Shown here in pieces: positions 27-4,698 of a stretch of 28,745 nucleotides of DNA. Position 1 is the stretch's first letter; the number at the start of each line of letters is the position of its first letter. The notes beneath the pieces were generated by a model. It was not told the DNA's origin. It made no database searches and saw only the letters and a program-made list of their open reading frames with translations. The position numbers and the translations under genes were made by a program. Location of the stretch: positions 1 through 28,745 of IMG/VR virus record IMGVR_UViG_3300009706_000043; one strand, 5' to 3'. Source of the DNA: a virus.

Positions 27-86
27 TTATCCACATTTTTCTCGGAACGGAAAGTTATCCACAATTTTTTTTAATTTTGTGGATAA
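27..86. promoter_or_regulatory. Cluster of three perfect DnaA-box sequences
   Basis: The 9-mer TTATCCACA occurs at 27-35 and 55-63 on the plus strand, and its reverse complement TGTGGATAA lies at 78-86. This matches the strongest bacterial DnaA box (TTATNCACA). The second and third copies form a 10-bp perfect inverted repeat (55-64 with 77-86) around a T-rich 12-base loop. The surroundings are very AT-rich. A function as a host-DnaA-dependent origin, a DnaA titration site or a transcription control site is inference; the sequence match itself is direct. Confidence 0.6.
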
Positions 87-126: not shown

Positions 127-255
127 AACATTTAAAATTCATAGGGGTTACAATTATGGGTAAATATAAGGAGAGTAATTAACACATTTTTAAACAAACT
201 ACAATTTAAGCGTACTGTAGATTCAACTGATGGGTTAGCAGATATATTAAGTTAT

Positions 256-1230
256 ATGCGACCACACAACAGTAGGATTGAACGTAAGTTTATTGCTAGG
301 TTCATTGATTCAGTTAAGGGAATGAAACAAGATTCATTTGGCAACAGATATATATTTGTTGGTAAGAATCCTGACACTATGTTCTCTTGTCATACGGACA
401 CAGTACATAAACATGGCGGTAAACAGAAAGTATATGTAGATACATTTCAAGGTATGATGTATACAGACGGAAAACAATCTAACTGTCTTGGTGCTGACGA
501 TGGTGTTGGTATCTGGATTATGCTTAAAATGATTGCAGAGAAAAAGACTGGTCTATACATTTTCCATAGAGGAGAAGAAGTAGGTGGTCTTGGTTCTAGT
601 TGGATAGCTGAACATAATCAACTGTTATTCTCACATATCACTAAAGCCATTGCTTTTGATAGGAAAGGATATACTGATGTTATTACATATCAGGGTAGTT
701 CCAGATGTTGTAGTAATATCTTTGCTGACGACCTAGCTATTAAATTAGGTATGGGGTACAGAGCAGATGAAGGTGGGCTATTTACGGACACAGCTAACTA
801 TACTATGCTCATACCTGAATGTACTAATATAAGTGTAGGTTATGATTTTCAACATACAGCCAGTGAAACACAAAACTATGTATTTGCTAAAGATTTATTA
901 CATAGAGTATTAGAGATTGATTTCAGTGCTTTACCTGTAGCTAGGAAAACCACAGATATTGACGACTTATTTAGCTCTACTGGTTATGGTACTGGATATA
1001 ATTCTAGTTATGACCATTTCGATTTCAGTGATGAACCAGATGCTATAGCAATTGAAGTTCCTCAATTTAGAACTCAGGTGGAAGCGAGTGAATTTGCTTG
1101 GAAATATCCTGAAGTTATGGCTGAGGAAGTAATTGACTTACAACGAAAAGTTGCTAAAATGGAAAAGCTGGCTAATAGAAAAGCTCAACATAGAGCTGAC
1201 GCTTATCTTAAACATATGAGTGGTGTATAA
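256..1230 (+). CDS. Di-zinc metallopeptidase (clan MH, M28/M20-like)
   Basis: This is a probable zinc-dependent amino- or carboxypeptidase or amidohydrolase. Numbered from the ATG at 256, it shows H46-T-D48, the G-A-D81-D82-G block, E107-E108 in a G-E-E-x-G-G-L-G-S motif, D135 and H200 in a Q-H-T-A-S-E-T motif. This is the ligand order of co-catalytic zinc peptidases. After about residue 225 comes an acidic linker and a helical, charged C-terminus. The frame stays open upstream to 145 and encodes a natural-looking N-terminus (ending L-A-D-I-L-S-Y before M1), so ATG 256 is probably internal. No ATG, GTG or TTG lies upstream in frame; an ATT at 178 follows AAGGAG at 168-173. An eight-codon ORF (156-182) in another frame could also join it by a shift. 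There is no signal peptide, so it should be cytoplasmic. Such an enzyme is not part of the T7 core, and its substrate is unknown. The family call is good; the start is not. Confidence 0.75.
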   Translation: MRPHNSRIERKFIARFIDSVKGMKQDSFGNRYIFVGKNPDTMFSCHTDTVHKHGGKQKVYVDTFQGMMYTDGKQSNCLGADDGVGIWIMLKMIAEKKTGLYIFHRGEEVGGLGSSWIAEHNQLLFSHITKAIAFDRKGYTDVITYQGSSRCCSNIFADDLAIKLGMGYRADEGGLFTDTANYTMLIPECTNISVGYDFQHTASETQNYVFAKDLLHRVLEIDFSALPVARKTTDIDDLFSSTGYGTGYNSSYDHFDFSDEPDAIAIEVPQFRTQVEASEFAWKYPEVMAEEVIDLQRKVAKMEKLANRKAQHRADAYLKHMSGV

Positions 1231-2159: not shown

Positions 2160-2231
2160 ACTTAGAATGTTCTTAGAATATTCTTAGATTTACTTCTTAC
2201 TTCATTCTTACTATATTCTTATACTAAGAAT
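2159..2231. repeat. Helically phased TTCTTA repeats with terminal palindrome; candidate attP arm or operator sites
   Basis: TTCTTA occurs at 2170, 2181, 2194, 2205 and 2216, and a one-mismatch copy (TACTTA) at 2159. The spacings are 11, 11, 13, 11 and 11 bases, so the sites lie on about the same DNA face. The last copy forms a perfect 7-bp inverted repeat, ATTCTTA-TAC-TAAGAAT, at 2215-2231. The array fills the gap between integrase and RNA polymerase genes. Integrase arm sites or a cooperative repressor operator are the most natural readings. I could not identify an att core. Confidence 0.55.
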
Positions 2232-2259: not shown

Positions 2260-4698
2260 ATGTATTTACACCCAATAGAAGATTACGAAAGACAATTAGA
2301 GCTTGAAAAAGAAGCTATTGATATGGGTCGTAAGCAGTATCTTGAGAATAAGGGTAAAACACAAGAATCAGACTTACCACCAGCTCAGAAAATTATGAAT
2401 GACTCAGTTATCCTCCTCACTGAGTCTATTTCTGACTGGATTGTCTCAGTCAAAGTGGGCAGAGCTAATAGGAATGCTAGTCAGGTAAGACTCCTAGAAT
2501 CATTCTCAGGAGATTATGAGACAGTTGCTTATATAGCTACTCGTGAGTGTATTAATCATCTTATACGAGATATTACACTTACCAGACTAGGTTCTATTAT
2601 TGGTAAAAAATTAGAACAACACCTGACGTATGAGAAACTACGTGAGGAACACTACGGTTTACATTTTAAATTAACTAAACAACTACGTCATACTAATTCT
2701 GAAAGACACAGACGACGTGTTGTTATGCATACTATAAATAAGTCTGGATTAACAGAAGTTAAATGGAATGCCAGAGATAGAGATTCTGTGGGTATCCGTT
2801 TAGTTTACTTATTTTCCAAATGTTCAAATTTAATAGAGATTAAAAGACAACGCAACTTTAAGAAGGGAGCTAGAAAGTTTCGCTCTAGTTATATTGTTGC
2901 ACCAACTGATGCTACTGTTGAGTATCTTGAAGAAGGACATGAGAAGTTTTCTTTAATGACTCCTACTCATATGCCTATGTTAATACCACCAAGAGAATGG
3001 ACATCAAGCTCTGGTGGTGGCTATCTTAATCATGATGCTTTTAAACTAAAGTTAGTTAAAGGTAGTAACTATAACTACATGGAAGAAATTGATAATACTG
3101 ATATGCCAGAGGTGTACTCAGCTATCAATGCTATCCAACAAACAGAATGGCGAATAAATAAATCTGTATATAAAGTAATGAAACAGGTATGGGAAGAAGG
3201 CGGTACTCTTGGTAAACTTCCAAGTAGAGAAAAGAAACCTTTACCGACGTGTCCTCAGAATCCACAGGAAAATCCTGAGAAATTTAAAAATTGGAAACGT
3301 GAAGCCGCTAAAATATACGAGGAAAATATTCGTACAGTATCCAAGCGTATTGGCATGGGTAATAAATTATGGTTGTCTCAGAAGTTCTTAGATGAAGAAA
3401 GATTTTACTTTGTCTGGACTATGGACTGGAGACAACGAGCTTATCCACTTGCTAATATGGTTAATCCACAAGCTGATGATTCAGGCAGAGCATTATTACA
3501 ATTCTCTAATGGTAAAAAACTTGGAGAAGATGGTGTCTATTGGTTAGCTATCCATATCGCTGGATTATTTGGTATTGATAAATGTTCTTTTGATGAACGG
3601 GTTAAATGGGTTTATGATAATAATGAACTACTGTTAGATTCAGGAATGAATCCAATGGACGGGGAAAGATTCTGGTCAACCGCTAAGAAACCTTATAGAG
3701 CATTATCCGCTTGTTTTGAATGGTTAGGTGCGAGCATAGCTGGAGAAGATTTTGTTAGTCATCTACCTATTGACTCGGACGGTTCATGTAATGGTATCCA
3801 GAACTTCTCAGCTATGTTATTAGATGAGATAGGTGGTAAAGCTGTGAACTTAGTTCCAGCCGATAAGCCACAGGATATTTATACTGAAGTTCAAATGGCT
3901 GTTACTAATAAGCTTAAGAACATGAAGGACGAGGATTTTGCAAAGGTATGGGAAGATAGAGTATCAAGAGATATTGTTAAACGACCATGTATGACACTAG
4001 CTTATGGCTCGTCTCGTTATGGTATGTGTAACCAAATATTAGAAGAAATTAAAAAATACAAAGCTGATGAAGGTATAAATTATTTACCAGATTACGTAGA
4101 TGAAAATAAAGCTTGTGAATTTCTATCTAATATCGTCTATGATACTATTGGTGATGTGGTTGTTGCGGCTAGGAAGGCTATGGATTGGTTACAGGAAGTA
4201 GCTAAAGTGGCAAGTGAACATCAACTACCAATTCGTTGGGAAACGGCTGTAGGGTTTCCTGTAAGCCAAGCTTATTATGATAATGTAAGTAAGAGGTTAC
4301 AACTGAATTTTGGAAAACAAAAATTTAGACTGAGATATAATCAACAGTCATCAAAGTTATCCAAACGTAAACAGATTAGTGGAATATCTGCTAACTACGT
4401 TCATTCAATGGACGCGGCACACATGATGTCCACTGTCAATATGTGTATGGTTAATGATATAGAAGATTTAGCTATGGTTCATGACTCGTTTGGTACACAC
4501 GCTTGTAACTGTACTTCTTTATATAACATATTAAGATATACATTCGTAAAACAATACTCAGTTGATAGGCTTGAGTTATTCAGAGAACAGATACTAGAAC
4601 AGCTACCAGATGAACTGGGGGTAAAAATACCTCCTGTACCACAAAAGGGTAAGCTTGACATATCAACAGTTATGGAGTCGGAGTACTTTTTTGCTTAA
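2260..4698 (+). CDS. T7-like single-subunit DNA-directed RNA polymerase
   Basis: This enzyme transcribes the phage middle and late genes from phage promoters. At 812 aa it is somewhat shorter than T7 RNA polymerase (883). Motif A is M-D-W-R-Q-R-A-Y-P with catalytic D389 (T7 D537). Motif B has R570, K574 and Y582-G583 (T7 R627, K631, Y639-G640). Motif C is V-H-D-S-F-G-T with D742 (T7 D812). The promoter-specificity loop lies at about 668-705. Aligned by eye, R679 and R690 match T7 R746 and R756, but the positions of T7 N748 and Q758 are Q681 and R692, with a one-residue insertion between. It should therefore read a promoter unlike that of T7. The start has a GGGG Shine-Dalgarno at 2251-2254. 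It follows the integrase and the phased repeats, so its expression may be tied to the lysogeny decision. Confidence 0.98.
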   Translation: MYLHPIEDYERQLELEKEAIDMGRKQYLENKGKTQESDLPPAQKIMNDSVILLTESISDWIVSVKVGRANRNASQVRLLESFSGDYETVAYIATRECINHLIRDITLTRLGSIIGKKLEQHLTYEKLREEHYGLHFKLTKQLRHTNSERHRRRVVMHTINKSGLTEVKWNARDRDSVGIRLVYLFSKCSNLIEIKRQRNFKKGARKFRSSYIVAPTDATVEYLEEGHEKFSLMTPTHMPMLIPPREWTSSSGGGYLNHDAFKLKLVKGSNYNYMEEIDNTDMPEVYSAINAIQQTEWRINKSVYKVMKQVWEEGGTLGKLPSREKKPLPTCPQNPQENPEKFKNWKREAAKIYEENIRTVSKRIGMGNKLWLSQKFLDEERFYFVWTMDWRQRAYPLANMVNPQADDSGRALLQFSNGKKLGEDGVYWLAIHIAGLFGIDKCSFDERVKWVYDNNELLLDSGMNPMDGERFWSTAKKPYRALSACFEWLGASIAGEDFVSHLPIDSDGSCNGIQNFSAMLLDEIGGKAVNLVPADKPQDIYTEVQMAVTNKLKNMKDEDFAKVWEDRVSRDIVKRPCMTLAYGSSRYGMCNQILEEIKKYKADEGINYLPDYVDENKACEFLSNIVYDTIGDVVVAARKAMDWLQEVAKVASEHQLPIRWETAVGFPVSQAYYDNVSKRLQLNFGKQKFRLRYNQQSSKLSKRKQISGISANYVHSMDAAHMMSTVNMCMVNDIEDLAMVHDSFGTHACNCTSLYNILRYTFVKQYSVDRLELFREQILEQLPDELGVKIPPVPQKGKLDISTVMESEYFFA

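Follow-up and report, generated by a model that had tools for sequence, protein, structure and literature searches.

Three exact DnaA boxes clustered within 60 bases of a temperate-type T7-like phage sequence were found to lie inside the genome, just downstream of a strong predicted host promoter and in the predicted leader of an operon encoding a peptidase, a tyrosine integrase, and a T7-type RNA polymerase (RNAP). This position makes a host-controlled switch a better guess than an origin at the left end of the phage, and we favor, as possible rather than probable, the reading that host DnaA binds the leader boxes and blocks or tunes transcription into the peptidase-integrase-RNAP operon. The window (the whole stretch of DNA analyzed) is an IMG/VR fragment of 28,745 bases that is classed as linear, and its left edge is an assembly break. 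The boxes, and the repeat formed by two of them, are located as follows.

27-35, + strand: DnaA box 1, exact TTATCCACA, with a weak 6/9 partner, TTATTCCAA, at 16-24, two bases upstream
55-63, + strand: DnaA box 2, exact TTATCCACA in the window
78-86, - strand: DnaA box 3, exact TTATCCACA, inverted relative to boxes 1 and 2
55-86: perfect 10-bp inverted repeat comprising boxes 2 and 3, with arms TTATCCACAA (55-64) and TTGTGGATAA (77-86) and a 12-nt T-rich spacer

With both strands counted (+, +, -), these are the only exact copies of TTATCCACA in the whole 28,745-base window. The arrangement was as described in the initial annotation, which had reported two direct copies and one inverted copy within 60 bases and a 10-bp inverted repeat with a T-rich spacer formed by two of them. 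Its further statement that the trio is improbable by chance was confirmed: an order-3 Markov model gave an expectation of 0.30 copies of TTATCCACA per window and approximately 4e-8 clusters of three in 60 bp, none of 600 windows resampled at order 2 held three boxes inside 60 bp, and none of 100 dinucleotide shuffles of the window gave three copies of TTATCCACA. The gaps between the boxes are 19 and 14 bp, and a spacing of 2-3 bp is seen for box 1 alone, with its weak 6/9 partner. On the overlapping contig L010, box 2 reads TTATTCACA because of a single-nucleotide difference (C to T) at window position 59, and the TTWTNCACA consensus is still satisfied.

The assignment to the T7-like phages was upheld by the genes recognised in the window, which encode a T7-type RNAP, a primase-helicase, and a DNA polymerase, and by the T7-like large terminase on L010, which shares 58% identity with that of Rhizobium phage RHEph01. 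A lysozyme-type amidase and RusA were also recognised. The best relatives of the RNAP, whether from isolates, viral contigs, or bacterial genomes, are 35-42% identical to it, and no DNA-level matches to isolated phages or plasmids were found. The gene order is that of temperate-type alphaproteobacterial T7-like phages: the T7-type RNAP, primase-helicase, DNA polymerase, and terminase occur in order and the integrase precedes the RNAP, as in the temperate type of the Autographiviridae sensu lato. A MarR-type regulator, which is common but not universal ahead of the integrase in temperate T7-like members, is present there in CRP-171, HTVC200P, and RHEph01; none was found between the promoter and the integrase of this phage, where the sequence is covered.

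The initial annotation had placed the boxes at the left end of the phage, which two contigs matching the window from its base 1 at >99.9% identity contradict. L009 (15,810 bases) extends 362 bases and L010 (10,365 bases) extends 5,891 bases upstream, and a phage left end at the boxes was rejected because of the terminase, Hsp20, junction, and 432-aa early gene that lie upstream on L010.

L010 863-2831: terminase small and large subunits
L010 3282-3686: Hsp20, followed by the noncoding late/early junction
L010 4128-5426: early gene of 432 aa, the first early gene, upstream of the boxes
L010 5918-5977: DnaA-box trio, with the peptidase gene next

From this gene order, running from terminase to early gene, L010 spans the joined late and early genome ends, and the trio follows an early gene, approximately 1.8-2.3 kb in from the late/early junction; this distance is reckoned from the junction on L010. 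The window and the upstream sequence together come to 34.6 kb and the relatives measure 38-46 kb, so roughly 6 kb more of genome is estimated, in which a MarR-type regulator might be encoded. All four exact boxes on L010 and the window (4/4) fall in two noncoding regions flanking the first early gene. A second inverted pair, TTATCCACCGC/GCTGTGGATAA, is present at L010 3885/3923 in the late/early junction, and is accompanied by a GC-rich island in the L010 3800-3935 stretch, beside Hsp20.

The upstream sequence also supplied a sigma-70 promoter match, TTGACA-N17-TACAAT with an extended -10 (TG-TACAAT), at window -41 to -13 (L010 5850-5878). No other match of at least 11/12 occurs on either strand of the 34.6 kb, where the expectation for the extended form is 0.075, and the promoter ends 39 bp before box 1. 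Because the predicted promoter is upstream of the boxes and would read through them, as looked for in a DnaA-regulated unit, the boxes fall in what is predicted to be the leader of the peptidase-integrase-RNAP operon. In the compared stretch, 13 positions distinguish L009 from L010, 10 of which lie in a 103-bp patch (window -102 to 0), the others being at 59 (inside box 2), 414, and 2826. No difference falls in the 41 bp around the promoter, versus the 10 in the patch, giving a P value of 0.005 that is indicative only, since this interval was picked after the differences were seen. The dense patch (L009 260-362/L010 5789-5891) stops exactly at the start of the window's assembly. The window, L009, and L010 are nearly identical, so that conservation of the boxes is hardly sampled and the contigs are not independent evidence. 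A search of the leader for an RNA hairpin gave no significant result (z -1.1). The leader and the operon that follows it comprise these features.

1-177, + strand: predicted 5' leader of the peptidase-integrase-RNAP operon, with the sigma-70 promoter just upstream of the window
178-1230, + strand: Zn/M28-like peptidase gene, first ATG at 256
1220-2134, + strand: tyrosine integrase, conserved catalytic positions kept
2139-2147, + strand: AAGTATCCC, a motif of a putative phage RNAP promoter, ahead of the RNAP gene
2260-4698, + strand: T7-type single-subunit RNA polymerase

Homology to Rhizobium phage Pasto suggests that the peptidase starts upstream of the ATG at 256, perhaps at an ATT at 178 behind AAGGAG; in the 155-256 stretch, a short open reading frame with its ATG at 155 carries this AAGGAG ahead of the possible ATT start. 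The integrase is apparently intact. It is without the N-terminal domain found in related phage integrases, and a Tyr replaces the first His of its HxxR motif. Further + strand copies of AAGTATCCC occur at 4698, after the RNAP gene, and at L010 2831, in the late region; the copies before and after the RNAP gene are intergenic, and the repeated motif probably marks phage RNAP promoters. The integrase-RNAP gap contains an array of TTCTTA (window 2161-2230, with copies at 2170, 2181, 2194, 2205, and 2216 in steps of 11-13 bp) accompanied by an inverted TAAGAA at 2225; the array lies in one of the least stable stretches and could represent operators, attachment arms, or iterons. A tRNA/attP search found no tRNA.

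If the boxes control the operon, DnaA would occupy the two direct boxes and the inverted one, the first of them lying about 33 nt past the predicted start of transcription, and the bound protein would block or slow host RNA polymerase entering the operon. The amounts of integrase and phage RNAP, early in infection or in the prophage, would then follow the free DnaA of the host, hence its replication state, and the decision between lysis and lysogeny could be affected. Precedents bear on this scheme. LUZ100, a T7-like phage, has a MarR-integrase operon under a host promoter, with proposed read-through into an RNAP gene that has its own phage promoter (PMC10134795). DnaA bound in a transcribed region has been reported as a roadblock to RNA polymerase and represses several E. 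coli promoters (PMC11317965). DnaA control is thus supported by boxes that exceed chance, by the unique 11/12 promoter 39 bp upstream, by the sparing of that promoter from sequence differences, by the noncoding placement, by the LUZ100-like layout, and by the reported DnaA roadblocks and repression. It is weakened by the preference of E. coli DnaA for paired boxes 2-3 bp apart (PMC11317965), a spacing that in the trio only box 1 shows, with its weak partner; by the lack of a cluster in 160 other T7-like RNAP loci; and by the small number of differences among near-identical contigs, one of which nevertheless falls in box 2. The proposal of a control site for the first gene was the best fit of the three ideas in the initial annotation, given the strong sigma-70 promoter upstream and the boxes in the leader, with the difference that control would act on the peptidase-integrase-RNAP operon and not on the first gene. 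The more specific idea that host DnaA at the three boxes takes the place of MarR, and so couples integrase and RNAP production to the replication state of the host, we regard as unlikely.

The layout matches the LUZ100 lysogeny cassette (a Pseudomonas phage; PMC10134795) in having a host promoter, an integrase, and an RNAP with its own putative phage promoter, in equal order and strand; it differs in that LUZ100 has MarR before the integrase, whereas this phage has a peptidase at that position, shows no MarR, and carries three DnaA boxes in its leader. In Rhizobium phage Pasto, a 516-aa protein homologous to the 432-aa one (24% identity) is followed by a zinc peptidase (41%) and then an integrase, but a helix-turn-helix gene precedes the integrase and there is no box cluster, only one exact box inside the peptidase gene. 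At the E. coli DnaA-regulated promoters and roadblocks, too, the boxes lie within or close to a promoter or a leader that is transcribed; binding was shown in those cases and is favored by a spacing of 2-3 bp (PMC11317965), whereas here binding is predicted and the gaps are 19 and 14 bp.

A comparable cluster was found at none of 160 other T7-like RNAP loci, 94 of which had at least 3 kb upstream, and a family-wide T7-like feature was rejected on this count. Box counts upstream of RNAP in T7-like loci were not clearly above those of permuted motifs. When 20 related isolates were screened whole, two close boxes were seen in HTVC200P only, so that the comparison with relatives proposed in the initial annotation yielded no such trio in either set. 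In this Pelagibacter phage (L164 41959-41987, near the right end) two copies of TTATTCACA lie 20 bp apart, with four ATTCACA-type repeats in steps of about 10 bp. The premise that T7-like phages are free of DnaA sites was, however, too strong, as a box-array search revealed that some lytic T7-like isolates carry dense exact or near-exact arrays in their terminal region: P483, A7, nasanit, and SEqdws-315 of Berlinvirus and phiEap-1 of Eapunavirus. The exact TTATCCACA arrays in lytic T7-like isolates, all unannotated, are these.

L491 2434-2559: exact TTATCCACA array
L492 22-147: exact TTATCCACA array
L493 71-174: exact TTATCCACA array
L494 12-80: exact TTATCCACA array
L495 1086-1188: exact TTATCCACA array

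The terminal arrays of the isolates have 3-8 boxes in a single orientation; A7 and phiEap-1 carry an array near both record ends, and a single array occupies this region in P483, in nasanit, and in SEqdws-315. Some T5-like records also matched the box-array search, with one match inside an annotated terminal repeat. Literature searches found no report on DnaA boxes in T7-like phages.

Across IMG/VR the trio pattern occurs in at least 120 contigs, compared with 0 for the reversed pattern. The loci listed from two box-pattern scans sort into 52 groups according to their flanking proteins, and of 37 sampled clusters only 7 lie inside an open reading frame of at least 70 aa. In the scanned representatives of a group of 95 related viral loci (among the matches listed; for instance L017 6727-6790), a DnaA-box cluster lies between the genes for the small and large terminase subunits. 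A general link between box clusters and terminase, suggested by the first sample, failed after reduction to the 52 groups, as it came mostly from this one 95-locus group. T7-type primase-helicases accompany arrays of 5-12 DnaA boxes, many in steps of 11-12 bp, in L052 (1936-2127), L037, L032, L079, L092, L100, and L104, with no T7-type RNAP seen in the pieces covered; judged by their sequences, these arrays are good candidates for DnaA-dependent phage origins. L416 and L442, which also have DnaA-box clusters, encode an Hsp20 related to that of L010, and the ribonucleotide reductase of L442 is 58% identical to that of the window.

An origin at the trio itself, at which DnaA would open an AT-rich region, perhaps aided by transcription, and the phage primase-helicase would load at infection or for an episome, we consider distinctly unlikely. 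It would account for three exact, strong boxes in 60 bp beside a T-rich stretch, for a promoter reading through them, and for a best 50-bp window among the 0.84% least stable, and separate phages with a T7-type primase-helicase do have the 5-12-box arrays with 11-12 bp periods (again with no T7-type RNAP in the pieces seen). At 100-150 bp, however, the box region ranks only at 5.8-10.9% in instability and the integrase-RNAP gap is among the least stable; the intergenic region of the boxes has no iterons, and the trio has no 11-12 bp strong-box array. The GC skew is positive on both sides, with a dip in the noncoding stretch alone, so that the skew plot called for in the initial annotation showed no switch at the boxes. 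No Rep or partition gene was recognised among the proteins scanned from the 34.6 kb, and the integrase is apparently intact, with conserved catalytic positions kept. The T7 primary origin lies after the RNAP gene, and a phage-promoter-like motif follows the RNAP gene here at 4698, in that very place. The lack of a clearly distinctive unwinding element, of a recognised Rep or partition gene, and of a skew change, together with the retained integrase positions, makes an origin less likely, and the suggestion of a host-initiator-dependent origin for maintenance without integration was not supported.

A reduced terminal-region array that serves DNA entry, circularisation, or packaging instead of gene expression is also unlikely, but it is kept in play by the arrays of the isolates and by the second inverted pair, which lies at the L010 late/early junction. 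Berlinvirus and Eapunavirus isolates have terminal-region arrays, near both ends in A7 and phiEap-1; some T5-like records match, one of them inside an annotated terminal repeat; and the injection stop signal proposed for T5 includes DnaA boxes (PMC13250531). The trio instead follows an early gene, about 1.8-2.3 kb in from the junction, and comprises three boxes in mixed orientation (+, +, -) as opposed to 3-8 in one orientation, and the adjacency to terminase in viral contigs stems largely from the one related 95-locus group. Titration, by which the sites would sequester DnaA after infection and dampen host initiation, fits three strong sites per genome in noncoding DNA that are multiplied by phage replication, but three to five sites per genome is a small number, and titration does not explain why they sit at a fixed position behind a strong promoter; we judge it improbable. 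Equally improbable is a chance occurrence or relic with no present function: the cluster is restricted to one lineage and one box is already altered in L010, but only about 4e-8 such clusters are expected per window and this one comes immediately after the best promoter that the sequence contains. Least probable of all is that the boxes are operators or arm sites of a phage protein (the integrase, an unknown repressor, or the phage RNAP) that merely resemble DnaA boxes. The symmetrical layout close to the integrase operon and the context of box 2, which resembles the putative phage promoter motif, would agree with this. Against it stand the exact fit of all three boxes to the DnaA consensus, an integrase without its relatives' N-terminal domain that could bind arm sites, the different 11-bp repeat array preceding the RNAP gene, and the trio pattern in at least 120 viral contigs versus 0 for its reverse, which points to DnaA.

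With regard to the phages that carry terminal arrays, this phage shares with Berlinvirus (P483, A7, nasanit, and SEqdws-315) and Eapunavirus phiEap-1 the T7-like type and clustered exact TTATCCACA near the left-end region, but their arrays are at the genome ends and have more boxes in one orientation, whereas the trio is about 2 kb further in and mixed. The T5 injection stop signal resembles it in combining DnaA boxes and inverted repeats in an early region next to the phage end; T5 is an unrelated phage type with two-step entry, no phage RNA polymerase, and a larger repeat region in the terminal repeat (PMC13250531). Clustered DnaA boxes are widespread in viral DNA, and the terminal-region clusters in culturable T7-like isolates provide laboratory systems for asking what the boxes do. 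The choice between integration and lysis in temperate T7-like phages is an unsettled question, and if DnaA control of the operon is true, a DnaA-responsive leader ahead of integrase and phage RNAP would tie that choice to host replication.
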